Of a stretch of DNA of 64,000 nucleotides, positions 5,634 through 61,800 are shown in pieces. Source of the DNA: Acidihalobacter aeolianus (GTDB lineage Bacteria; Pseudomonadota; Gammaproteobacteria; DSM-5130; Acidihalobacteraceae). The stretch is taken from assembly GCF_001753165.1 (NCBI RefSeq), contig NZ_CP017448.1, forward strand, positions 248,001 through 312,000, given 5' to 3'. The translations under genes were made by a program, and so were the position numbers. The notes under the pieces were generated by a model that did no database searches, was not told the origin of the DNA, and saw only the letters and a list, made by a program, of their open reading frames with translations. How positions within the stretch are numbered: the first letter of the stretch is position 1; the number at the start of each line of letters is the position of its first letter.

Positions 5634-6430
5634 GTCGTGGATCCGGCGATAGAGGCGTTTTCGGGCAGGGCGAACAGCCTGCGGGCGTTGGCCGTGGTGG
5701 CGGCCGCCATGGTAACCGAATCGATGCCGCGCAGCTCGGCCAGGACTGTCAGCACCTCGTCGAGGTACGCCGGTTCGTTGCGCTCGCCGCGATGCGTGAT
5801 GCCGGGCTGATCCGGGGCGTCGGTCTCAAGCAGCAACCCTTCGACCGGCAGGCTGGCCGCCACGCCTCGCAGGCGTTGCGCGCGCGGATAGGTCAGCGGG
5901 CCACCGAGTCCGATGCAGAAACCCATGGCGAGGAGCTGTTCGGCCTGTTGCAGGCTGCCGGAGAAGCTGTGCACCACGCCGCGCAGTCCGGGCTGGCGAC
6001 GCAGCTGCTTCATCACCTCGTCGAGGGCGCGGCGTGCGTGCAGGATCACAGGCAAATCGAACTCGCGAGCGAGGCGCAGCTGGGCGACGAGGTAATCGAC
6101 CTGGGCGGCACGATCCAGTCCCTCGACGTAGAAATCCAGTCCGCTCTCGCCCACGGCGACGGGGCGTTCGCGCGCGATCCATTCGCGCAGCCACTTGAGG
6201 TGCTCCGGGCGATGTTTCGGCTGATACATGGGGTGCAGGCCGTAGGCGGCATGCAGTCCTTGTTGCGGATCGGCAACCGCCTGCAGCTTCGGCCAGCTAG
6301 CCGCATCCACCGCAGGCAGGATCTGTGCGACCACACCGGCTGCGCGTGCGCGGCCCAGCGCGGAGGCGCGGTCGGCATCGAAGCTGGTGTCGTCGAAGTG
6401 GCAGTGGGTGTCAATGAGTTCCGCAGGCAT
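5630..6430 (-). CDS. TatD family metal-dependent hydrolase
   Basis: Amidohydrolase-fold DNase or hydrolase of 266 residues. Metal ligands are visible: the N-terminal DTHCH (residues 7-11), GESGLDFY (about 118-125), an ILHAR segment, HSFSG (about 168-172), and ETDAPDQP (about 220-227). These match the TatD/YcfH/YjjV group. The annotation as a 3'-5' exonuclease or D-aminoacyl-tRNA-related hydrolase differs between members, so I leave the substrate open. It is the first gene of a two-gene operon with tcdA and is divergent from the chemoreceptor gene at 6526. Confidence 0.88.
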   Translation of the reverse strand: MPAELIDTHCHFDDTSFDADRASALGRARAAGVVAQILPAVDAASWPKLQAVADPQQGLHAAYGLHPMYQPKHRPEHLKWLREWIARERPVAVGESGLDFYVEGLDRAAQVDYLVAQLRLAREFDLPVILHARRALDEVMKQLRRQPGLRGVVHSFSGSLQQAEQLLAMGFCIGLGGPLTYPRAQRLRGVAASLPVEGLLLETDAPDQPGITHRGERNEPAYLDEVLTVLAELRGIDSVTMAAATTANARRLFALPENASIAGSTT

Positions 6431-50799: not shown

Positions 50800-51183
50800 A
50801 TGATACAATTGGCTATGCGACGCGACTACGGATTAGACACTCTGCTTGGTCTTGATCAAGTCATCATTGCTCAAGATTGCGGGTATTGGGTCAAGTTCGA
50901 AGTGAGTTTGGTTGAGGTTACTAATGAGAGGCCGCACGGCATTAAATATTCGCTGACCCTGCATGACCGCTACAGCAAGCGTGTGATGGGTTATGACAAT
51001 GCCCATGCGGTGCGGTTACCGCGTAAGCACAAGTATGCTGGCCAGCGCGCCCGTCCGCATGACCATAAGCATCAGCACTCTCTAGATAAAGGAGTGCCAT
51101 ACGAGTTTCAAGATGCCGATCAGTTGCTAGTGGATTTTTGGTCGGATGTCGATCGTGTATTGAAAGAGGTTTGTAACAAATGA
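50800..51183 (+). CDS. TumE/DUF6516-family toxin
   Basis: A 127-residue protein of the TumE (formerly DUF6516) family, the toxin of a two-gene addiction module. Family-like segments are YWVKFEVSLVEVTNERPHGIKYSLTLHDRY (positions 29-58) and DNAHAV near 66-71, followed by a His/Lys-rich stretch (RPHDHKHQHSL). The mode of action is not established from sequence. The stop overlaps the start of the downstream HTH gene by 4 bases, the usual arrangement. MRRDYG at 50815 is an alternative start. Confidence 0.78.
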   Translation: MIQLAMRRDYGLDTLLGLDQVIIAQDCGYWVKFEVSLVEVTNERPHGIKYSLTLHDRYSKRVMGYDNAHAVRLPRKHKYAGQRARPHDHKHQHSLDKGVPYEFQDADQLLVDFWSDVDRVLKEVCNK

Positions 51184-51533
51184 AGACCATCGTTATTGGT
51201 GTCATGCCGCAAGAGAAGATTCGCGAGCGAATGATGGCTATTGCTCGTGGTGAGTACAAACCAAAGGCCAGTGATCCGAAAGTCTGGTTTCCGTCCATGC
51301 GCTCATTGGCAGAAGTTCTAAGCGACGAGAATCAAGCTTTGCTGACTGCCATCAAAGAGAGTCGGCCAAAGTCGATTACTGAACTTGCGGTGAAGGTTGG
51401 TCGGAAACCAGGTAATTTATCTAGGACGCTTAAGACGCTTTCGCAGTATGGGCTTGTTGAGTTGCAGCGAGAAGATGGGCGGGCTCGCCCAGTCGTGCAT
51501 GCAAAAAACCTTGAGTTTCGGATATCGGTATAG
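51180..51533 (+). CDS. TumA-type winged-helix antitoxin
   Basis: A 117-residue DNA-binding protein. The C-terminal part is a MarR-like winged helix: SITELAVKVGRKPGNLSRTLKTL (about 61-83, helix-turn-helix) and YGLVELQREDGRARP (about 86-100, wing). It overlaps the toxin gene (ATGA) and is expected to neutralise it and to repress the operon. The pairing is the basis for the call. Confidence 0.78.
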   Translation: MKTIVIGVMPQEKIRERMMAIARGEYKPKASDPKVWFPSMRSLAEVLSDENQALLTAIKESRPKSITELAVKVGRKPGNLSRTLKTLSQYGLVELQREDGRARPVVHAKNLEFRISV

Positions 51534-51961: not shown

Positions 51962-52008
51962 AATGGCGCGCCCGAGAGGATTCGAACCTCTGACCTCTGC
52001 CTCCGGAG
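51962..52008 (-). repeat. Attachment-site repeat: 3' fragment of tRNA-Arg(CCG)
   Basis: These 47 bases are identical to 61722-61768, which covers the 3' part of the intact tRNA-Arg gene from the anticodon loop to the CCA. The match stops after CTCCGGAG. This is the standard footprint of tyrosine-recombinase integration into a tRNA 3' end, and marks the distal island boundary. Confidence 0.95.
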
Positions 52009-52210
52009 CGCGCCCGGGCCGCCTTTGTTGCTTACGCCGAACACAAGAAACACAAATATAATCAATGAACTAATAGGAATCAATAGGAAAGTAGAGGAAA
52101 CGAAATGAAGGTGTGACAGGGGGAAAATTGACGCAAAACCATGCTCAGAGCATGGTTCCTCTCGTTTCTTTCAGTTTCTGTTGAAAGTATGCGCGTTTCT
52201 GTCAAATCAG

Positions 52211-52245: not shown

Positions 52246-52428
52246 ATGGAACTAATGACAAAGGCAGATGTGGCTTCGTATCTCGGCGTCACGATACGTA
52301 CGGTTGATAACCTTGTGCTTCGCGGCGAACTGCCCGGACCTCAGCATATCGGTAGAAGGGTGTATTGGCTCAAAGAGGAGTTTGACAATCACATTCGTGA
52401 TTGCTTGCGCGGCATACAACACAAGTAG
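52246..52428 (+). CDS. AlpA/MerR-like helix-turn-helix regulator, 60 aa
   Basis: A small DNA-binding protein of the AlpA/excisionase type: TKADVASYLGVTIRTVDNLVLRGELP (positions 5-30) is a winged helix-turn-helix, followed by GRRVYWLKEEFDNHI (37-51). Such proteins activate integrase genes or act as directionality factors in islands. It follows a GGAG site and is preceded by one copy of the island motif, so it may regulate itself and the integrase. Confidence 0.85.
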   Translation: MELMTKADVASYLGVTIRTVDNLVLRGELPGPQHIGRRVYWLKEEFDNHIRDCLRGIQHK

Positions 52429-52459: not shown

Positions 52460-53560
52460 CGGGCTGGCAAGACCCAATCATGCCACTCAATCAAATGTCC
52501 TAAGTAGTTATCTGACCTCCTTTCATCGTCAAAGTTGAACGTTGTTCGTGAGATGCCAGGTACCACCCTGGCTTGCGATCTCGCTGCGGCACCACCCGTA
52601 CAGCTGCATCGCGCTCATCACCATTTGGGCTACCACGCCCAGTCACATTTCGCATACGCATGATGCTTTCGACATCGAGACATCACTCCCGATTGGCTTG
52701 CGCCTCCCCAAGTCGCTTCGACTGAATCGCTTTTGGGTTTGTCGTCTACTCACATCGCTCCCAGCCATAGGACTATTCCGGCACCACCCGGTGTACGTCC
52801 CTTAGGCCTTCCCGCGTTAGCACACAGATGTCGATCCGCTAGCCAGCGCCTCCCATCAAAAACGTCGCATTCGCGTCACCCATTGGGTTTTCAGTCCGGC
52901 GAGATTCCAAAGCCCGTGACTTACCGTTCAAGATGGTTCCAGCTTCAGTCATCCACCTACTTCTGAGGTGAATACTGGCTTCACTTCACTGACCCGACAG
53001 CGACCTCGAGGGCCGCCGTTACAGGCTTGAGCTATGCATCGATCCAGCGAAGTTGCCTCCGTTGGTACCAGTCGTTCCAGATTTCTCCTTACGACCTCAT
53101 GCAGGTTTCCCTGCATACGTGAAGCCCGCCTGTCGGGGCCGAGTTGCACCGTTTCCAGCACCCCTCGGCGAGGATTTACACCTCTTCATCTGCGGCAGGG
53201 TTCCTTTGGTTTTAGCGTTTCCGCATCCTCCATCGGCCCGTTTCCGCGTCGCCCAAGCTCGCCTATCGGCGGATTGGGTCGAACAGGGCATTACAGCCCT
53301 GAGCGCCCGTCGCAGCCGTACGAGCCCCATTACGGGCATACGGCTACAGCGCATGCTCAGCCAGAGTTGATTGACTCTGGCCTAGCCGGATTGGTGATCC
53401 GGCTTCGGTCCTTGCGGACCTGTGACAATGATGTTCGGGGGCTGGTGAGGCCCCCACAGATGGTGTGAGTCAAGCCCCCGATGGTGTTCGTCTTGCGACG
53501 TCAACACATCGGTGTCCTGCCTCGTATAGGGAATGAGAACGCCGTTTCCGGCGTTCTTCT
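52460..53560 (-). ncRNA. Candidate large structured non-coding RNA
   Basis: No ORF in this 1.1-kb stretch looks like protein, but short perfect hairpins are dense. Read on the minus strand, four are closed by GNRA loops: GAAA at 53545-53548, GCAA at 53412-53415, GATA at 53264-53267 and GAAA at 53106-53109. On the plus strand these loops would be TTTC, TTGC, TATC and TTTC, which fixes the likely strand. Other stems: 53384-53404 (8 bp), 53360-53381 (8 bp), 53284-53301 (6 bp), 53437-53455 (6 bp). Four hairpins share the loop GUGGUR (52778-52791, 52626-52641, 52587-52598, 52556-52571). Size and style recall giant RNAs such as GOLLD or ROOL of mobile elements, but I cannot align it to either. Ends are approximate. 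Confidence 0.6.
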
Positions 53561-53680
53561 AGGAATCTCTTGTAGTTGTCTGTGAATCCACCTTCGGTGT
53601 TTTCACAGGTTGTTGTTGGATCAAACACTTACAACCCTTCGCCGCTTTGCCCATCTTTGGCGCAAACCTGCCTTCTCGGT

Positions 53681-53715: not shown

Positions 53716-54417
53716 ATGTTCGATCCACCTGTTCACATACACAAAACCGTCTTCATGCAGCGCGTACTCGATGCCGTCTCGCACGGCTATCACTGGCACA
53801 CCAGCGGCACCGTGCCCCTCAACAAGGCGCAACGTCTTGCTGCCAAGTTCGGCGAGCACTACGCGATACATCGCAACGAGAACCAGCGCGCCTACGCCAA
53901 GCGCAAACGCGAATGCAATGCGAGGCTGTTCCTGTACGCACCGCCCCAGGCCAAGGTCTTAGCTTGGTTTCTGCTCGCTACCGATGGAGATGGACGCATA
54001 CACGAGGAGGAGCGGCTCAGACACGCCCAAGATGTCCTAGGGCGTATACGTCTGGATGACGACTATGAGCTGATACGTCGCACCCGCAAAAGCGATAAAG
54101 GCGGGGGTACCGTGTGGAGTTGGCGCATGACAAAAGACTGCGAGCGACGTTGGCGCGAACGGATCATCTCAGCGTGCCGACAGTCGCATGCGCTCGCGAT
54201 CACTCAGGCGATCGGTTCGCTCTACCGCGTGCCGGGTTTTTCAGGCATCCGCGAACAAACCGGAGCCTTGATTGCTTTGGCGCGCGCCGAATGGAGGCGC
54301 AGGCATGGCACGCTCGATGCGTTGATCCTGCCCCCTAAGCTGCCCTATATCGAGAGGCTCCCTGATACCTCGCTGGCACTCTCACAGGTGATCCGACAGG
54401 GTCGCGTAGAGACCTAA
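53716..54417 (+). CDS. Hypothetical island protein, 233 aa
   Basis: Unrecognised soluble basic protein. The C-terminal half contains a GFSGIREQTGALIALARAEWRRRHG block (within 174-198), and the middle an ARLFLYAPPQAKVLAWFLLATDGDGRI region (68-94) that reads like a plasmid or integrative-element protein. AAGAAAGCG before the ATG is a modest ribosome site. It sits between the structured RNA and the KfrA-like gene and is preceded by the island motif, so replication, mobilisation or control of the element is possible but not shown. Confidence 0.7.
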   Translation: MFDPPVHIHKTVFMQRVLDAVSHGYHWHTSGTVPLNKAQRLAAKFGEHYAIHRNENQRAYAKRKRECNARLFLYAPPQAKVLAWFLLATDGDGRIHEEERLRHAQDVLGRIRLDDDYELIRRTRKSDKGGGTVWSWRMTKDCERRWRERIISACRQSHALAITQAIGSLYRVPGFSGIREQTGALIALARAEWRRRHGTLDALILPPKLPYIERLPDTSLALSQVIRQGRVET

Positions 54418-55337: not shown

Positions 55338-57782
55338 TTAGTCCATTGCTTCAGATAACTGTCGGCGCTCCCAATACCCAAGATTCATGATGCCTGTAGT
55401 TAGCCTATTTGCGACAAGTTCATCCAGATCATTTTCATCACCGTTTAAGTCATAAAGTAAATTTTTGCGGGCACTTATAGCCGTATCACGTGGAACGCCT
55501 TTTTCAAGGAGGTGTCTGGTAACTGGGTGGAACGAACCCCATTCAATAGAGGCAAGCATTGGTGCGCCTTGATTTAGTATGTCAGCATACGGCTTAAGTA
55601 ATGAAGGAATACCATAAACAACTTTATTCATTAGGAGGGTAATTTGTTCATCAATTTTATCGTCGATATTCTCTATAAAATGTCGCTGATCAAGAATATC
55701 CCGAAGTGATACTTCGCGAGCCCACTTTTCCACCGATAAGCACATTGCCCACACAAATCGGTCTTCGGTGCTCTCGCCAATGTATCGTTGATAATAATAA
55801 TTTAATTGATCCGCATGAAATTCTATTATGTCGTGAAGCGTTTTTGCGACGTCTCTATCCCAAACGCTACTAGGAAGTGACGGTAAATTATTATGTTCCG
55901 AAAGGCGATATATGATGTCTAAATCAAATGGGTCCCAGTAGCGATGAGATAGTGCTTTTGCTTTAGGGATTTTAAGATTATTAAGTGCATTGAGCGTGTT
56001 GCTAATTTCATCATTAGACAGCAGTATTCCGACTTCGCGGAGTCGATTGGTTCCAGGTAAGCCGAGTCGAAGTAGTGTTTGCCTTATGTAGATAACAAGG
56101 AACTTATGAGGTCCTCCCGAAGCCGGTTCTGGATGATCTAAATTTTCTACCACTTCGCGGCGATGCTGATCGAACGCTTCATGATAACCGGGTGACAAAT
56201 CTTTATATTCGTCTTTAAATAAATCATCTTGTGTGTCCTCTTCTACGAAGGCGCTTGCATCAAGAACGACTGACCGTCCCACAAAATCCTTAAGAAGCCT
56301 GCCTGCTCGTCCGCGTAAATTGGCGAATTCGTAAGGTGACAGCTTGGCAGCGCCATATTTGCTCCGCTTAATGAATAAATTTGGATTTCTTACGATTACA
56401 GTCGTAGCAGGAAGATTAACACCTTGCATAAGAGAGGTTGTGCAAACCAGGTCTTTAATGACTCCAAGTCGGAAGGCGTCCTCAATGGCTGCGCGAGCAT
56501 GCATGGGAACCCTTCCTGAGTGATAACCAACCCCCATTTTTACAGTCTCTGCGAGCTTGTATGATGGGTGCACCGTCTCTTTAAGGTATTCGGCAAGAGA
56601 TATAGTTCGCTCGTCGACATCGTCGATGACTAACTTGGCAGCGAGTGCGCGGGCGGTGTTCCTGGCTTGGGCAGCAGTTGGGGAAAAAATTATGTTATGT
56701 GATTTTGGGCCCAAACTGGATACTAAATAAGCAAGATAATCCAAGAACTGATCTGTGTAAAGAGATTGACCATATCCAGCAATGCGGCCCTGCTCGGTGA
56801 TCGATATTGAATTCGGCGCTTCTAGTGTATCCACATACTGATTAAGCCAGTATCGCCCTTTGTGTTGCTCGATGGCATATGTGATGTTAACCACCGGCGC
56901 TAATTGGCTCTCTTGCTCGTCAGACGGCTCACCAAATATCTCAAAGCCCACGTTTCCAATGTTGCTTAGTCTCGGACCACTAAGGACAATTTTTTCAAGC
57001 CGACCACTATCTTTTAATTCTTTTAATAGATCGAATAGGATTTTCGCGCGTTGGTCGCTATCCTGAGCTACTCGTTCAAGATTCTGTACTTCATCTACAA
57101 CCAAGAATCCTTTCTCCGGCAAGCTTGACCCGTCAATCGCTCCCATAGCTCGTTCTTGTGTAAGCACGAAGATCGATTTTTCGTCGGTCGGATGATACGT
57201 TGTGAAAATACGGACGTGATCGGTTTCTGTTTTTCGAGTTAGTTCTCTTAGATCACGCGATACCTGGCTAACCAAACTCAATGTCGGTACAACGTATATC
57301 ACCGACGCAGTGCTTTGCTGAAGGTGTCGAATTATAGTGAGGTATATTGCAAACGATTTGCCCGCTGATGTTGGCGCGGAGATTCCAACTAGGCGGTGTC
57401 TTTCTATGGCATTGAGCACACCCAATTGAAACTCTGTTAGCAGAAATATTGAACTGGAAATGCGAATTTCATTTGAAGATTGTAATGCTGCTATCTGAAG
57501 CTCTGTCAAAAAGCTATTTGTCGGGCGATACTGCCCCGTAATTGCAAAATCATGATCTATCATCCCCGTTGAAGGCGCTATTCCTAAACGGGAAAGTGAC
57601 ACGATGAAAAAATCACTCAGGGATTCTCTTTGTTTTGAGGATGAGTGTTCCCAGGTTAGTGCTATTAACAATGTTGCCAAGCGTCGTGAGAATATATCCT
57701 TCTTCCATCGCAGTTCATCGATGGCATAAATGGCTTTCTTTAGTAATTTGTCGTCTATAACCTGCTCATCGCCGCGCACCAA
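55338..57782 (-). CDS. hamB: HamB, DEAD/DEAH-box helicase of Hachiman defence
   Basis: A superfamily 2 helicase of 814 residues. Walker A SAPTSAGKS at 135-143, DEVQ Walker B at 230-233 (LVVDEVQNL), SGPRLSN motif III region near 265, and motifs V/VI CTTSLMQGVNLPA and NLRGRAGR in the second core domain. Ski2-like in style with a long C-terminal extension. The HamA nuclease gene lies upstream on the same strand, which defines the pair as Hachiman: HamB senses invading or damaged DNA and releases HamA. The GTG start at 57782 has no evident ribosome site, and an in-frame TAG lies 30 bases before it, so coupling to HamA may have been normal before the IS insertion. Confidence 0.88.
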   Translation of the reverse strand: MVRGDEQVIDDKLLKKAIYAIDELRWKKDIFSRRLATLLIALTWEHSSSKQRESLSDFFIVSLSRLGIAPSTGMIDHDFAITGQYRPTNSFLTELQIAALQSSNEIRISSSIFLLTEFQLGVLNAIERHRLVGISAPTSAGKSFAIYLTIIRHLQQSTASVIYVVPTLSLVSQVSRDLRELTRKTETDHVRIFTTYHPTDEKSIFVLTQERAMGAIDGSSLPEKGFLVVDEVQNLERVAQDSDQRAKILFDLLKELKDSGRLEKIVLSGPRLSNIGNVGFEIFGEPSDEQESQLAPVVNITYAIEQHKGRYWLNQYVDTLEAPNSISITEQGRIAGYGQSLYTDQFLDYLAYLVSSLGPKSHNIIFSPTAAQARNTARALAAKLVIDDVDERTISLAEYLKETVHPSYKLAETVKMGVGYHSGRVPMHARAAIEDAFRLGVIKDLVCTTSLMQGVNLPATTVIVRNPNLFIKRSKYGAAKLSPYEFANLRGRAGRLLKDFVGRSVVLDASAFVEEDTQDDLFKDEYKDLSPGYHEAFDQHRREVVENLDHPEPASGGPHKFLVIYIRQTLLRLGLPGTNRLREVGILLSNDEISNTLNALNNLKIPKAKALSHRYWDPFDLDIIYRLSEHNNLPSLPSSVWDRDVAKTLHDIIEFHADQLNYYYQRYIGESTEDRFVWAMCLSVEKWAREVSLRDILDQRHFIENIDDKIDEQITLLMNKVVYGIPSLLKPYADILNQGAPMLASIEWGSFHPVTRHLLEKGVPRDTAISARKNLLYDLNGDENDLDELVANRLTTGIMNLGYWERRQLSEAMD

Positions 57783-57811: not shown

Positions 57812-59117
57812 CTAGCAGGCTGTTGAAAATTCCCCCGATTTAGCGGTTATCATGTTGATCAGGGTCCATTGGCGACGTGCCCCTTCGGATCTGGGGCCTG
57901 ATTTTTCCCGAAAACAGCCCAAATCCCGATCTCTGGGCGCACCGATCCCTTGATGTGTGCCTTCAACATGCTGCCAGTCCCAGATTGCGCATCCGCACCA
58001 GGTTGTAGGCCGCCGCGCTGAGCACAAACTGGAAATCCAGTTTCTCGCGTCCGACAAACCGACTTTTGCGCAGACCCGCAATGGTCTTGAGCCAACCGAA
58101 GCATTCTTCGATCCGCTTGCGGATCGTCAGGCTGGTTCGGTAACCGGGATGGCCGATGGTGCGCCCGTCGATGGCCGAGCGGCGCCCGGCCGTGTTCTGA
58201 GCCACATGCGGCGTGACGTTTCGTCCACGCATCGCCGCCACAAAGCCTTGCGTGTCATAGTTCTTGTCCGCGCCCAGCGTGATCCGGTGGCTCCCGCCGA
58301 GCGCGTCGACAAGCTCGACACCGGCCTCGCGCTCGGCCGTGCCGGTGGCCTGGCTCGTCTGCGACTCGACGATCAGGCCGTGGCGGTTTTCCATCAGCAG
58401 GTGTCCGAGGTAGCTGAGCTTGGCGGTCGTGCCTTCGCTCTTGCGATACAGCAAGGCATCCGGGTCGGTCCTGGAGACGTGCGTTTCCCGACACCGCTTC
58501 TGCCCGCGAAAGTCCACCGTGGGATTGCGCCCGCCACCGCTCGGCGGCGCGTCCTCGTCCCGGGGCCGGTAGCTCTTGTGCGAGGCCAGCGCTTCGATCA
58601 ACGTGCCATCGACGCTGAAGTGTTCGCTAGACAGCAGATCGGCCGCACGGGCCTGATCCAGCACCCGGGCGAAGAAGGTGCGGGCCACATCGCCTGCAAG
58701 CAGGCGGTCACGGTTCTTGGTAAACGTGGAGTGGTGCCAGACCGGATCGTCCATGGAAAAGCCCACAAACCAGCGAAACAGCAGGTTGTAGTCGATCTGT
58801 TCGACCAACAGGCGTTCGCTGCGGATGGTGTAGAACGCCATCAACAGTTGCGCGCGCAGCAGCTTCTCCGGCGGGATCGAGTCACGGCCCATATGGGCAT
58901 ACAGCGCATCGAAGTCAGCGTCGAGTTCTTTGAGCGCTTGATCGACCATCCGCCGGATCGGGCGCAGAGGATGGTCCTTCGGCACCCGTTGCTCCGGGCT
59001 GACCGTGCTGAACAGCCCATCCTGATGTATGTCGGCACCGCGCATCGGCCACAACCCTCACTCAACAATACAAAACCAATCTTCCGGGTTTACAGGACTT
59101 TTTCAACAGCCTGCTAG
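57812..59117 (-). mobile_element. IS5-family insertion sequence between hamA and hamB
   Basis: The element spans 57816-59113 (about 1.3 kb). Its ends are inverted repeats beginning CAGGCTGTTGAAAA read inward on both sides. It is flanked by a 4-base duplication CTAG (57812-57815 and 59114-59117), matching the YTAR target of the IS5 group. Removing it and one CTAG joins hamA to hamB with about 85 bases between the stop and the GTG start. The insertion leaves both coding regions whole. Confidence 0.93.
57963..59054 (-). CDS. IS5-family transposase
   Basis: A 363-residue DDE transposase. N-terminal DUF772-like region (about 15-100, with PEKLLRAQLLMAFYTIRSERLLVEQI, at 62-87), then the catalytic part: HFSVDGTLIEA (first Asp near 147), LGADKNYDT (second Asp near 252) and RKRIEECFGWLK (Glu near 321). 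The frame is intact, so the element may be active. It is transcribed in the same direction as hamA and hamB, so it could block or replace the hamB promoter supply. Confidence 0.93.
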   Translation of the reverse strand: MWPMRGADIHQDGLFSTVSPEQRVPKDHPLRPIRRMVDQALKELDADFDALYAHMGRDSIPPEKLLRAQLLMAFYTIRSERLLVEQIDYNLLFRWFVGFSMDDPVWHHSTFTKNRDRLLAGDVARTFFARVLDQARAADLLSSEHFSVDGTLIEALASHKSYRPRDEDAPPSGGGRNPTVDFRGQKRCRETHVSRTDPDALLYRKSEGTTAKLSYLGHLLMENRHGLIVESQTSQATGTAEREAGVELVDALGGSHRITLGADKNYDTQGFVAAMRGRNVTPHVAQNTAGRRSAIDGRTIGHPGYRTSLTIRKRIEECFGWLKTIAGLRKSRFVGREKLDFQFVLSAAAYNLVRMRNLGLAAC

Positions 59118-59170: not shown

Positions 59171-60067
59171 TTAGTGGCTGTCAAAGTCTGAAAGGATTAC
59201 ATCGAGGTTCCAAACGGGGAAAATTATGTAATGTATTCTATTGATTAGTGCTGAAGATAAACCGCTCAGTGCGCTAGTGTCGGCGTTACGTAGACGATCA
59301 GATATTATGGATTCGATTTTTTTCTTTATGGCTGTTTCGTCTTCGGCTTCTTTATCTTTGGTTTCTGAGTAGCAAATTACACATACCAGTTCATATCGTG
59401 TATTTGGCAAATCACCATCCTTCAAGAGGCGGGCGACTTCTCGCAGTGGCTCTTCGATGAAATCGTCATATACATATAATGATAGTTCCTCATCTATGTT
59501 ATTATATGAATTGAGAATACTTATAAGTGCATCTGAAAACGCAGAATTGAATTTATAGTTAGATTTGTATGTTTTCGCTTCGCCGAGATATATTATGTTT
59601 GAATCTCCTGTCGCCGTGTAATGGATGGCGTCCGACCCGTGCCGCTCAATAGCGGTATTTGTTGTGATTGGCATTTTTCTCAATATTGGTGGCGCTGAAA
59701 AAAAGTATTGTAAGAAATTAAATAATAATAGTTCACCAAACTGACCTTGTGGGTGTCCCCGGCGGAACTTGCTTCTTGCAAGTGAATCTATGTGAGATGC
59801 TGCATTTTGAATGTCGTGCCCCCGTGCTATTAGTGCGCGATCGAATAGATCTCTGTATGTGGCTTTCGAGTACACCCAGTTGCAGACGGTATTGCGTAGC
59901 TCCCGAAGAAAATCGTCTCTTTTTTCAGCCAGGTCCACGGTGTTGATTGTTACGCCGTATGCACTAGCTCCAGGCGGGGGAGGTAATTGATGTGAAAAGT
60001 GATGTACGTGTCGGATAAAGGCTGTTGTATCAGCTAGAAGTGCTTGTATTTCTGATGTTGGCAACAT
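59171..60067 (-). CDS. hamA: HamA, DUF1837 nuclease effector of Hachiman defence
   Basis: A 298-residue protein with a PD-(D/E)xK-like nuclease core. The putative active site is spread over GQFGELLLFNFLQ (108-120; Glu112), HGSDAIHY (143-150; Asp146) and YLGEAKTYKSN (160-170; E-x-K at 163-165). This arrangement matches DUF1837/HamA. The gene is AT-rich and upstream of the helicase gene. In Hachiman, HamA is held inactive by HamB and cuts DNA after activation, killing or stalling the infected cell; that is known of the family, not shown here. Confidence 0.87.
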   Translation of the reverse strand: MLPTSEIQALLADTTAFIRHVHHFSHQLPPPPGASAYGVTINTVDLAEKRDDFLRELRNTVCNWVYSKATYRDLFDRALIARGHDIQNAASHIDSLARSKFRRGHPQGQFGELLLFNFLQYFFSAPPILRKMPITTNTAIERHGSDAIHYTATGDSNIIYLGEAKTYKSNYKFNSAFSDALISILNSYNNIDEELSLYVYDDFIEEPLREVARLLKDGDLPNTRYELVCVICYSETKDKEAEDETAIKKKIESIISDRLRNADTSALSGLSSALINRIHYIIFPVWNLDVILSDFDSH

Positions 60068-60459: not shown

Positions 60460-61572
60460 TTACAAGTCTTTGCTCTTGGTGACGGTCTTTTGTGACCTTA
60501 GTTTAGCTTTTGCAATATCAATTTCGTTGGCAAGCCCATCTGGTCGGAGATGCGTGTAGCGCTCCAAACTACGCCAATCCCGATGTCCTGTGATCTTTGC
60601 CACCTTCATATCATCCAAACCCATCTCAAAAAAGCGAGAGGCGGCTTCATGGCGCAAATCATGGAATCGCAGATCGTCGATAGCGGCTTTTTCGCGCGCT
60701 CTTATGAACGCCTGAGTGATTGAGTCTGCCCGCAGGGGGAACACATAACCCGACTCGGGTATGCTTTCTAGGCTGTCTAGCTGACGCAGCAAGATCTCGA
60801 CCGCTTCTTGCGACAACGGGATGGTACGAGGACGCCCGGTTTTCGTTTTGGGTATGTGAAGTTGTCGGGTTGAGAGTTTGACATCTTGCCATTGGATGTT
60901 TGCGATCTCTCCTCGACGCATGGCGGTCTCGACAGCTAAATGGCAAATGTCCGCGAGGTGAGGCGAGTCGGAGTGCTCGATAAGCCGTTCGAGTTCCGCC
61001 TCGCTGGGGCGTCTTTCACGGCTCGGCTCTTTCTTGGGGCGTTTCACGACGCTGACCGGATTGCCGTGCGGTAAGAAGATGCCCCACTCAGACATACCGT
61101 GCTTGACCGCCGCAGACAGAATGTTCATTTCTCGGGTCACGGATGCGGGGCCTACTCGTTTCTCCTTAATATTCTGCCGCTCTATGGCCTTTTGCGTTGC
61201 CTTGCTCGCATCCTCGGGAATGGCGCATCGCAATCGATCATTACGGAAGGTCGCGACACACTCCGATGTCAGATTGATGAGCGGAAGGTCTTTAAAGTAG
61301 CGGCAAAGGTTCGCGATCCGCGATGGATCGGATGAGTAGTTCTCGCGCTGAGTGACCACTTCGCGCTGGTAGCGCTCAAGGAGTTCGGAAACGCTAGTGG
61401 ATTCGGCCTTTGAAGTATCCAGATAGACCTTGCGGACCATCTGCGATTCGATTGACTGCGCCCAAAGCTCCGCTTGCTGCTTGGTCGGGAAGGTTGCGCT
61501 CTTGTCCGGGTAGCCCTTTCGGCGAATACGGGCTTCCCACTGCCTTTCACCGCGCTTTCTGTATGTAGCCAT
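60460..61572 (-). CDS. Tyrosine integrase
   Basis: Site-specific recombinase of 370 residues that inserts and excises the island at tRNA-Arg. N-terminal AP2-like arm-binding region (about 1-50), core-binding domain (about 58-170) and catalytic domain (about 185-350). Catalytic residues: Arg in ETAMRRGEI (219 or 220), Lys near 243, His304 and Arg307 in FHDLRHEAA, His330 in TGHRDWRS and Tyr339 in LERYTHL. The gene sits about 150 bases from the tRNA and reads away from it. The start MATYRKRGERQW is standard for this group, and the island motif is 28 bases upstream. Confidence 0.95.
   Translation of the reverse strand: MATYRKRGERQWEARIRRKGYPDKSATFPTKQQAELWAQSIESQMVRKVYLDTSKAESTSVSELLERYQREVVTQRENYSSDPSRIANLCRYFKDLPLINLTSECVATFRNDRLRCAIPEDASKATQKAIERQNIKEKRVGPASVTREMNILSAAVKHGMSEWGIFLPHGNPVSVVKRPKKEPSRERRPSEAELERLIEHSDSPHLADICHLAVETAMRRGEIANIQWQDVKLSTRQLHIPKTKTGRPRTIPLSQEAVEILLRQLDSLESIPESGYVFPLRADSITQAFIRAREKAAIDDLRFHDLRHEAASRFFEMGLDDMKVAKITGHRDWRSLERYTHLRPDGLANEIDIAKAKLRSQKTVTKSKDL

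Positions 61573-61721: not shown

Positions 61722-61800
<79 letters not shown>

Follow-up and report, generated by a model that had tools for sequence, protein, structure and literature searches.

The window analysed here, a 64,000-nucleotide stretch of Acidihalobacter aeolianus DNA, contains about 1.1 kb (positions 52460–53560) that had been singled out from the letters as a candidate for a large structured noncoding RNA of a mobile element, possibly a new class or a divergent member of the GOLLD or ROOL families. Which RNA does this locus encode, and what might it do on the element that carries it?

A folded minus-strand RNA on a tRNA-Arg island

The locus is part of an island of 9.8 kb that has inserted at the 3′ terminus of tRNA-Arg(CCG) and is delimited by the following features:

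51962–52011, no strand assigned: att direct repeat, 50 bp, matching the 3′ end of the tRNA-Arg gene at 98%
60460–61572, minus strand: island tyrosine integrase (PF00589), beside the tRNA
61722–61771, no strand assigned: att repeat at the other island boundary, the 3′ end of tRNA-Arg(CCG)

The island encodes an AlpA-like helix-turn-helix (HTH) protein (52246–52428), followed by the noncoding stretch, acpG, a KfrA-like protein and the Hachiman proteins HamB and HamA. The Hachiman genes hamB (55338–57782) and hamA (59171–60067) are split by a DDE transposase gene (57963–59054). Just outside the island, at 50800–51533, a TumE-like toxin gene adjoins a gene for a MarR/HVO_A0114-type HTH protein, and the two likely form a toxin–antitoxin pair. 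Elsewhere in this genome, a VirB10-type type IV secretion system (T4SS) gene is present on the second contig (C2, 108362–108973), and two group II intron maturases are encoded on contig C1 (507728 and 2975965).

The minus strand of the noncoding stretch carries four hairpins with a perfect stem and a GNRA loop:

53548, 53496, 53415 and 53109, minus strand: hairpins with the loops GAAA, GCAA, GCAA and GAAA, respectively

No such hairpin was found on the plus strand of 52460–53560. Shuffled sequences contained a mean of 0.19, and four were reached in 0 of 300 shuffles. The original prediction had correctly taken this orientation bias as the sign of a real RNA and had counted four minus-strand loops; one of those it listed, GATA, is not a GNRA loop because its third base is T, and the second GCAA makes up the fourth. 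For 53410–52650, the minimum free energy was −331 on the minus strand and −280 on the plus strand; mononucleotide shuffles gave −278 ± 7, which corresponds to a minus-strand z of −7.5. Together, the hairpins and the folding energy bear out the prediction of a large folded minus-strand RNA on a mobile element. The stretch was said to lack a credible open reading frame; frames of up to 144 amino acids are present, but it is the RNA structure that homologues keep. The boundaries differ from those first given: the conserved RNA begins with P1 at about 53410 and extends to about 52650, and just past the right edge of the region first delimited lies an element of functional importance, comprising a site (53562–53569) and a hairpin (53580–53608).

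A circularly permuted group II ribozyme and its partner protein

An Rfam scan returned nothing at gathering thresholds, and neither GOLLD nor ROOL gave a match there or at E ≤ 5. OLE and raiA were discarded after negative or subthreshold scans. At a relaxed E-value, the Intron_gpII model produced a weak D5 match (26.6 bits; 53273–53348, minus strand), which served as a clue; a canonical group II intron (RF00029) was rejected because this score stays below the gathering threshold of 40 and because D5 is positioned 5′ of the other domains. Blastn located the core, which is not annotated there, on plasmids both small and large from Escherichia coli, Azotobacter, Halomonas, Gluconacetobacter, Komagataeibacter, Paraburkholderia and Acinetobacter, the E. 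coli matches being on plasmids with no E. coli chromosome among them. In the alignment of the homologues, a sharp 5′ edge is followed by D5 and by a D6 that bears a bulged A; CAAU^ comes next, and the short linker after it leads to ^GGGCG and a long part resembling D1. When bacterial genome contigs were searched with a pattern built from both splice sites, 86 stretches were recovered, and an RNA profile confirmed every one of them, in most cases across some 600 nt. The same pattern had no match in 2.9 million viral contigs, and a phage association was rejected on this result and on a blastn search in phages that was likewise without match.

Some of these loci have unusual arrangements. The ribozyme of Pandoraea pPO70-4 (L016, 11911–14024) is interrupted by IS256 near the D6–D1 linker, and Thiothrix pTunz1 (L019) carries two ribozyme copies on one plasmid (17087–17750 and 32484–33141). 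On Halomonas pHaKG2_3 (L005, 2384–3208), an annotated "hypothetical protein" antisense to the ribozyme is probably spurious. Loci L030, L035, L060, L063, L068 and L107, several of them from Paraburkholderia, have a ribozyme with neither acpG nor an external site nearby and are perhaps domesticated or decayed. Gluconobacter and Novacetimonas plasmids (L020, L023) carry acpG, and the RNA profile found no ribozyme on them, which may be very divergent or absent.

The check on homologues that the original prediction had proposed revealed extensive covariation. Among 81 non-redundant homologues, 101 of the top 260 column pairs were base pairs, against a background of 7%; these fall into about 24 helices and support D5, D6 and D1. 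The ribozyme was delineated as follows:

52650–53410, minus strand: circularly permuted (CP) group II ribozyme gene, P1–P2–D5–D6–linker–D1 to D4, about 760 nt (nhmmer profile and 81-sequence alignment)
53384–53404, minus strand: P1 hairpin, AGCCGGAT-CACCA-ATCCGGCT (sequence; aligned hairpin in homologues)
53360–53381, minus strand: P2 hairpin, whose loop (53371–53368) pairs with 52786–52783
53353–53352/52655–52656, minus strand: ribozyme closing helix (covariation)
53312–53347, minus strand: D5-like catalytic hairpin with an AGC triad (Rfam, 26.6 bits; covariation, 76–81 of 81 paired)
53276–53307, minus strand: D6 (alignment and covariation)
53255–53272, minus strand: linker from the CAAU^ 3′ splice site to the ^GGGCG 5′ splice site, 18 nt, with an internal IBS1
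52894–52920, minus strand: EBS1 hairpin, whose loop GGAAUCUC (52908–52901) consists of the delta G and EBS1

The RNA of the window shares its order of domains, both splice sites, the EBS1/IBS1 pair, the pseudoknot of P2 and the partner gene with a published class (PMC8637638) and is thus a CP group II ribozyme, a member of that class rather than of a new one. D5 (53347–53312) and D6 (53307–53276) precede the 5′ splice site at 53254, which is followed by D1. Roth et al. 2021 (PMC8637638), whose class is also known as "T-large" RNA, described reversed splice sites (NU at the 3′ and GGGCG at the 5′ splice site) around a linker of 15–86 nt. They reported self-processing to a small circle and a branched RNA and catalytic activity of five representatives; processed RNA was not seen in the single host tested. 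The features shared with their class are the D5–D6–linker–D1 order, the GGGCG and NU splice sites, the EBS1–IBS1 pairing, P1 and P2 with the loop pseudoknot, the occurrence on both plasmids and chromosomes, and a divergent acpG. A new class or a divergent GOLLD or ROOL, as originally suggested from the size of the RNA and its mobile-element setting, is not supported and has a negligible probability, given the absence of an Rfam match to either family, the group II D5–D6–D1 anatomy and the failure to find a viral homologue.

Details of the window sequence agree with this assignment. The P2 pseudoknot has the consensus GCCA/UGGC, in which the window has a compensatory A–U pair, and its 53371/52783 pair is formed in 79 of the 81 homologues. 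By analogy with the published class (PMC8637638), the bulged A at 53279, 7 nt ahead of the 3′ splice site, would be the branch point. The linker, which measures 13–47 nt in homologues (median 22), is predicted to be released as an 18-nt RNA circle, CCGCCGAUAGGCGAGCUU, containing the internal IBS1. The EBS1 hairpin covaries both with this linker IBS1 and with an external site. In 76 sequences, position −3 of the EBS1–IBS1 pairing was paired in 93%, compared with 72% after permutation (0 of 5000 permutations), position −4 also covaried (p 0.0002), and delta–delta′ was G–C in 74. In the window, five of the six EBS1–linker IBS1 positions are paired, with a C·U mismatch at −3.

The gene that diverges from the ribozyme encodes AcpG, the known, published partner of the CP group II class:

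53716–54417, plus strand: acpG, 233 amino acids, predicted reverse transcriptase (RT)-derived, maturase-like fold without YxDD

Within the stretches fetched, acpG was present at 67 of the 86 loci and divergent at 60, with a median of 350 nt between the 5′ ends. Sequence searches with AcpG (Pfam, PADLOC, NCBIfam and the PDB by sequence) gave nothing significant, NCBIfam assigned no relaxase family to the window protein, and Pfam on 55 AcpG members yielded one chance-level Replic_Relax match (E 0.17). No intron-encoded protein (IEP) family was found among the window proteins scanned; a profile–profile comparison of AcpG with the IEP family (hhalign) was not significant (E 0.09), its best local piece falling on the thumb. 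Foldseek likewise found no significant match in the PDB or among viral structures. An AlphaFold2 model of AcpG from a 55-sequence alignment reached a pLDDT of 95.5. With a second aligner, the top four matches of this model were group II intron RNP proteins aligned over 177–186 residues at 3.1–3.7 Å (8t2r and 8t2s, Z 9.3 each; 6me0, 8.8; 8fli, 8.2), although Z-scores close to this range of 8–9 can also arise from common arrangements. The aligned range covers palm and thumb, and the next-best matches include Prp8 and the group II-like RT G2L4. An Acinetobacter relative with about 20% identity, modelled at a pLDDT of 74.6, had group II maturases as its top six matches (Z 8.7–7.6); across both models, the best PDB matches lay at 3.1–5.1 Å. 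These models suggest that AcpG is likely an RT-derived, group II maturase-like protein. The window protein has no YxDD motif, and AcpG differs from Prp8 and the group II-like RTs in its size of about 230 amino acids and in being encoded apart from its RNA.

An external site complementary to the EBS1 loop

In the aligned upstream regions, we noticed the site GAGATTCC as an island of identity about 220 nt 5′ of D5. The elements upstream of the ribozyme in the window are as follows:

53562–53569, minus strand: external target site GAGATT^CC, complementary to the EBS1/delta loop at every position
53580–53608, no strand assigned: inverted repeat CTGTGAATCCACC/GGTGTTTTCACAG, 11 nt 5′ of the site in the minus-strand sense
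53524–53529, minus strand: CTATAC box, a possible −10 element, between the site and the RNA

An exact complement of the 8-nt loop was found in the upstream 900 nt on the sense strand in 63 of 76 homologues, compared with 2 of 76 on the antisense strand and 0.75 in shuffled sequence. Loop and site change together, with pairings such as GGAATCTC/GAGATTCC and GGAACATC/GATGTTCC: the site was of the type expected from the loop in 26 of 28 homologues with GGAACATC, 20 of 27 with GGAATCTC, 5 of 12 with GGAACCTC and all 5 with GGAATCTT, with one off-diagonal case. On an RNA tree built without the loop columns, at least 15 changes of EBS type were counted, and all independent pairs were concordant (5/5, 4/4, 4/4 and 2/2). 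The site is also linked to acpG. It was found in all 49 divergent-acpG loci analysed, mostly between acpG and the RNA, and in 52 of 56 loci with acpG compared with 2 of 9 without (Fisher p 1.5e-5). In another phylum, inspection of Thermus pTT8 revealed the loop GGAACCTC, the site GAGGTTCC at 6063–6056 and an acpG start at 6164; on Deinococcus pRadio4, no EBS-matching site was found. The internal IBS1 is fully Watson–Crick (6/6) with EBS1 in only 10 of 76 homologues, so the external site would be a better substrate than the linker. We had also considered the exact sequence of the circle junction (internal IBS plus circle start) as a DNA target at another place on the plasmid; it performed no better than shuffled sequence, and the target matches EBS1 instead. 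From the base pairing, a nick is predicted between 53564 and 53563.

Stems of at least 8 bp located 3–14 nt before the site were found in 17 of 58 homologues, compared with 3.3 at random positions; the hairpin is clear at these 17 of 58 loci only, and the folding energy of the 44 nt 5′ of the site was no lower than that of random upstream windows (p 0.6). The CTATAC box occurs at 27 of 63 loci, compared with 1.9 in shuffles, and a scan for sigma-70 consensus promoters found none. The DNA target of group IIC introns consists of a hairpin, a spacer, IBS1 and one further nucleotide (PMC10190682). The present module shares with the group IIC RNP the hairpin–spacer–IBS1 order and the single IBS3/delta′ nucleotide read by the EBS loops (PMC10190682), as well as, according to the AcpG model, a protein with RT palm and thumb. 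It differs in that its domains are permuted, its RNA has no open reading frame and its target lies beside the gene rather than being an insertion site; AcpG is shorter than the group IIC maturase, without fingers and without YADD.

Plasmid context and a possible role in conjugation

MOB-suite typed all 28 AcpG plasmids as non-mobilizable and without a relaxase; a relaxase is present in 91% of the best 5000 VirB4 plasmids. Among 17–18 carrier plasmids, profiles for PF03432, TrwC, MobA_MobL and TraI_2 found no match and the MobC profile found one, which was weak; these five relaxase families are otherwise absent from the carriers. In control plasmids known to have them, MobC and TrwC were detected. 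Relaxases were also found in host genomes of T4SS-linked loci, where they may belong to the same element as the locus or to a different one. The "non-mobilizable" call of MOB-suite misses a divergent MobC on Providencia pYPR25-2 (L113), a cfr plasmid with a T4SS.

A T4SS is present on 5 of 17 carriers and absent from 12, and about three independent lineages of T4SS plasmids were examined. Across the T4SS, the coupling protein and the accessory genes, E. coli pEc631_3 and Klebsiella pIIIF7SW-P1_1 are orthologous. In the latter, a MobC-family gene stands directly before VirB11 and adjoins a 1-kb gap that is probably the oriT; in pEc631_3, which has no MobC, the RNA and AcpG occupy the slot of the gap and MobC. 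Contigs from other genera again show the coupling protein, the RNA, AcpG and VirB11 in this order. In one E. coli strain, a 3-kb RepL plasmid without acpG has a loop and site identical to those of a co-resident 34-kb T4SS plasmid, as expected for a satellite that needs cis elements only, and co-residence of small and large carriers in E. coli (1 of 7; chance p about 0.02) is only suggestive. The module thus resembles relaxase–oriT modules (MOBC of the CloDF13 type, MOBF) in its slot by the coupling protein and VirB11, in its inverted repeat and nick-like site, and in the cis-only small plasmids beside helpers; it differs in that no relaxase protein was found and that specificity would sit in RNA base pairing.

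We therefore consider it probable that an RNP of the CP ribozyme and AcpG nicks the external site as an RNA-guided relaxase, where the DNA substrate, the nicking, the covalent intermediate and the transfer are all steps that we infer. The fuller reading, to which we assign a probability of roughly 0.55, is that the RNA and its dead-RT maturase AcpG start conjugation at an RNA-specified oriT nick and replace relaxases on plasmids and islands in at least two phyla. Roth et al. already pointed out that the reversed reaction would cut a DNA strand, and they found no target (PMC8637638). In the proposed mechanism, the RNP would consist of the ribozyme and the trans-encoded maturase AcpG, and its EBS1/delta loop would read the conserved DNA site beside the ribozyme gene, which is composed of hairpin, spacer and IBS1^C. 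AcpG and the branched RNA would bind this site while it is single-stranded or folded as a hairpin, and the first reverse-splicing step would cut it, leaving a free DNA 3′-OH. The 3′ end of the RNA at D6 would become joined to the cut strand at its 5′ end, and this RNA-capped 5′ end would correspond to relaxase-like chemistry. The strand would next be moved by a T4SS and coupling protein encoded either on this element or on a helper, after which attack of the DNA 3′-OH on the RNA–DNA junction, equivalent to the exon-ligation step, would reclose it. The module would serve as an RNA-guided substitute for relaxase and oriT, and the 9.8-kb tRNA-Arg island would be a mobilisable element with Hachiman as cargo. 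Several observations weigh against this explanation: 12 of the 17 carriers have no T4SS and one gave the weak MobC match, MOB-suite typing can overlook a divergent MobC, the T4SS context comes from about three lineages, the hairpin is clear at a minority of loci, pRadio4 showed no matching site, sequence methods did not bear out the maturase link, and Roth et al. saw no processed RNA in their host.

Cutting of the same DNA site by the RNP could instead serve replication or maintenance (rolling-circle priming, copy control or dimer resolution). Small plasmids lacking a T4SS are frequent among the carriers, a nick with a 3′-OH would prime replication equally well, and the RNA lies near the origin on pPNAP05 (PMC8637638). 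We nevertheless regard this as unlikely, since the Rep proteins of the carriers are ordinary and diverse (RepL, TrfA, RepA and RepC), and the module also resides on integrated islands and fills the relaxase slot by the coupling protein and VirB11. In addition, pTT8 still replicates after deletion of the ribozyme, as far as the work of Aoki and Itoh is cited in PMC8637638, and such dispensability fits a role in transfer.

Slightly less probable still is an action of the site in RNA, as a 5′ leader of the ribozyme transcript that is reopened or spliced for autoregulation. Group II RNAs are able to reopen spliced exons in RNA, and the site always lies upstream on the ribozyme sense strand (63 versus 2), where a long transcript would include it. 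If the CTATAC box (27 of 63 loci) acts as the −10-like element that it resembles, however, the site would fall outside the transcript, although the sigma-70 consensus scan found no promoter. The distance between site and RNA, which varies from about 150 to 900 nt, also speaks against this explanation, which leaves the link with acpG and the loss of relaxases unaccounted for.

The group IIC-like layout of the site (PMC10190682) could finally be a residue of group II biology, that is, a leftover insertion target or ancestral exon junction beside a broken intron, with no present function. This is very improbable: the EBS and the site have changed in concert many times and the site is a better fit to EBS1 than the internal splice site, both of which would require ongoing selection, and the five representatives studied are catalytically active (PMC8637638). 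RNA-guided nicking for conjugation remains our preferred reading.

The class was published in 2021 with its function listed as unknown, without a DNA target and with a partner protein that had no relatives (PMC8637638). In the text of that paper we found neither an external site complementary to EBS1, nor a maturase-like fold for AcpG, nor a context of relaxase replacement, and as far as the searchable literature shows, target site, fold and relaxase replacement are new. The present analysis offers specific candidates for a target site, a maturase-like partner (from structural models) and a conjugation context. Because Rfam is without the CP group II class, genomes carry these RNAs unannotated. 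If the proposed function is confirmed, the module would be a new kind of system: catalytic RNA could start conjugation, relaxase-based typing of mobile plasmids would miss a whole mode of transfer, and nature would possess an RNA-guided DNA-strand processing activity whose specificity is changed via base pairing.
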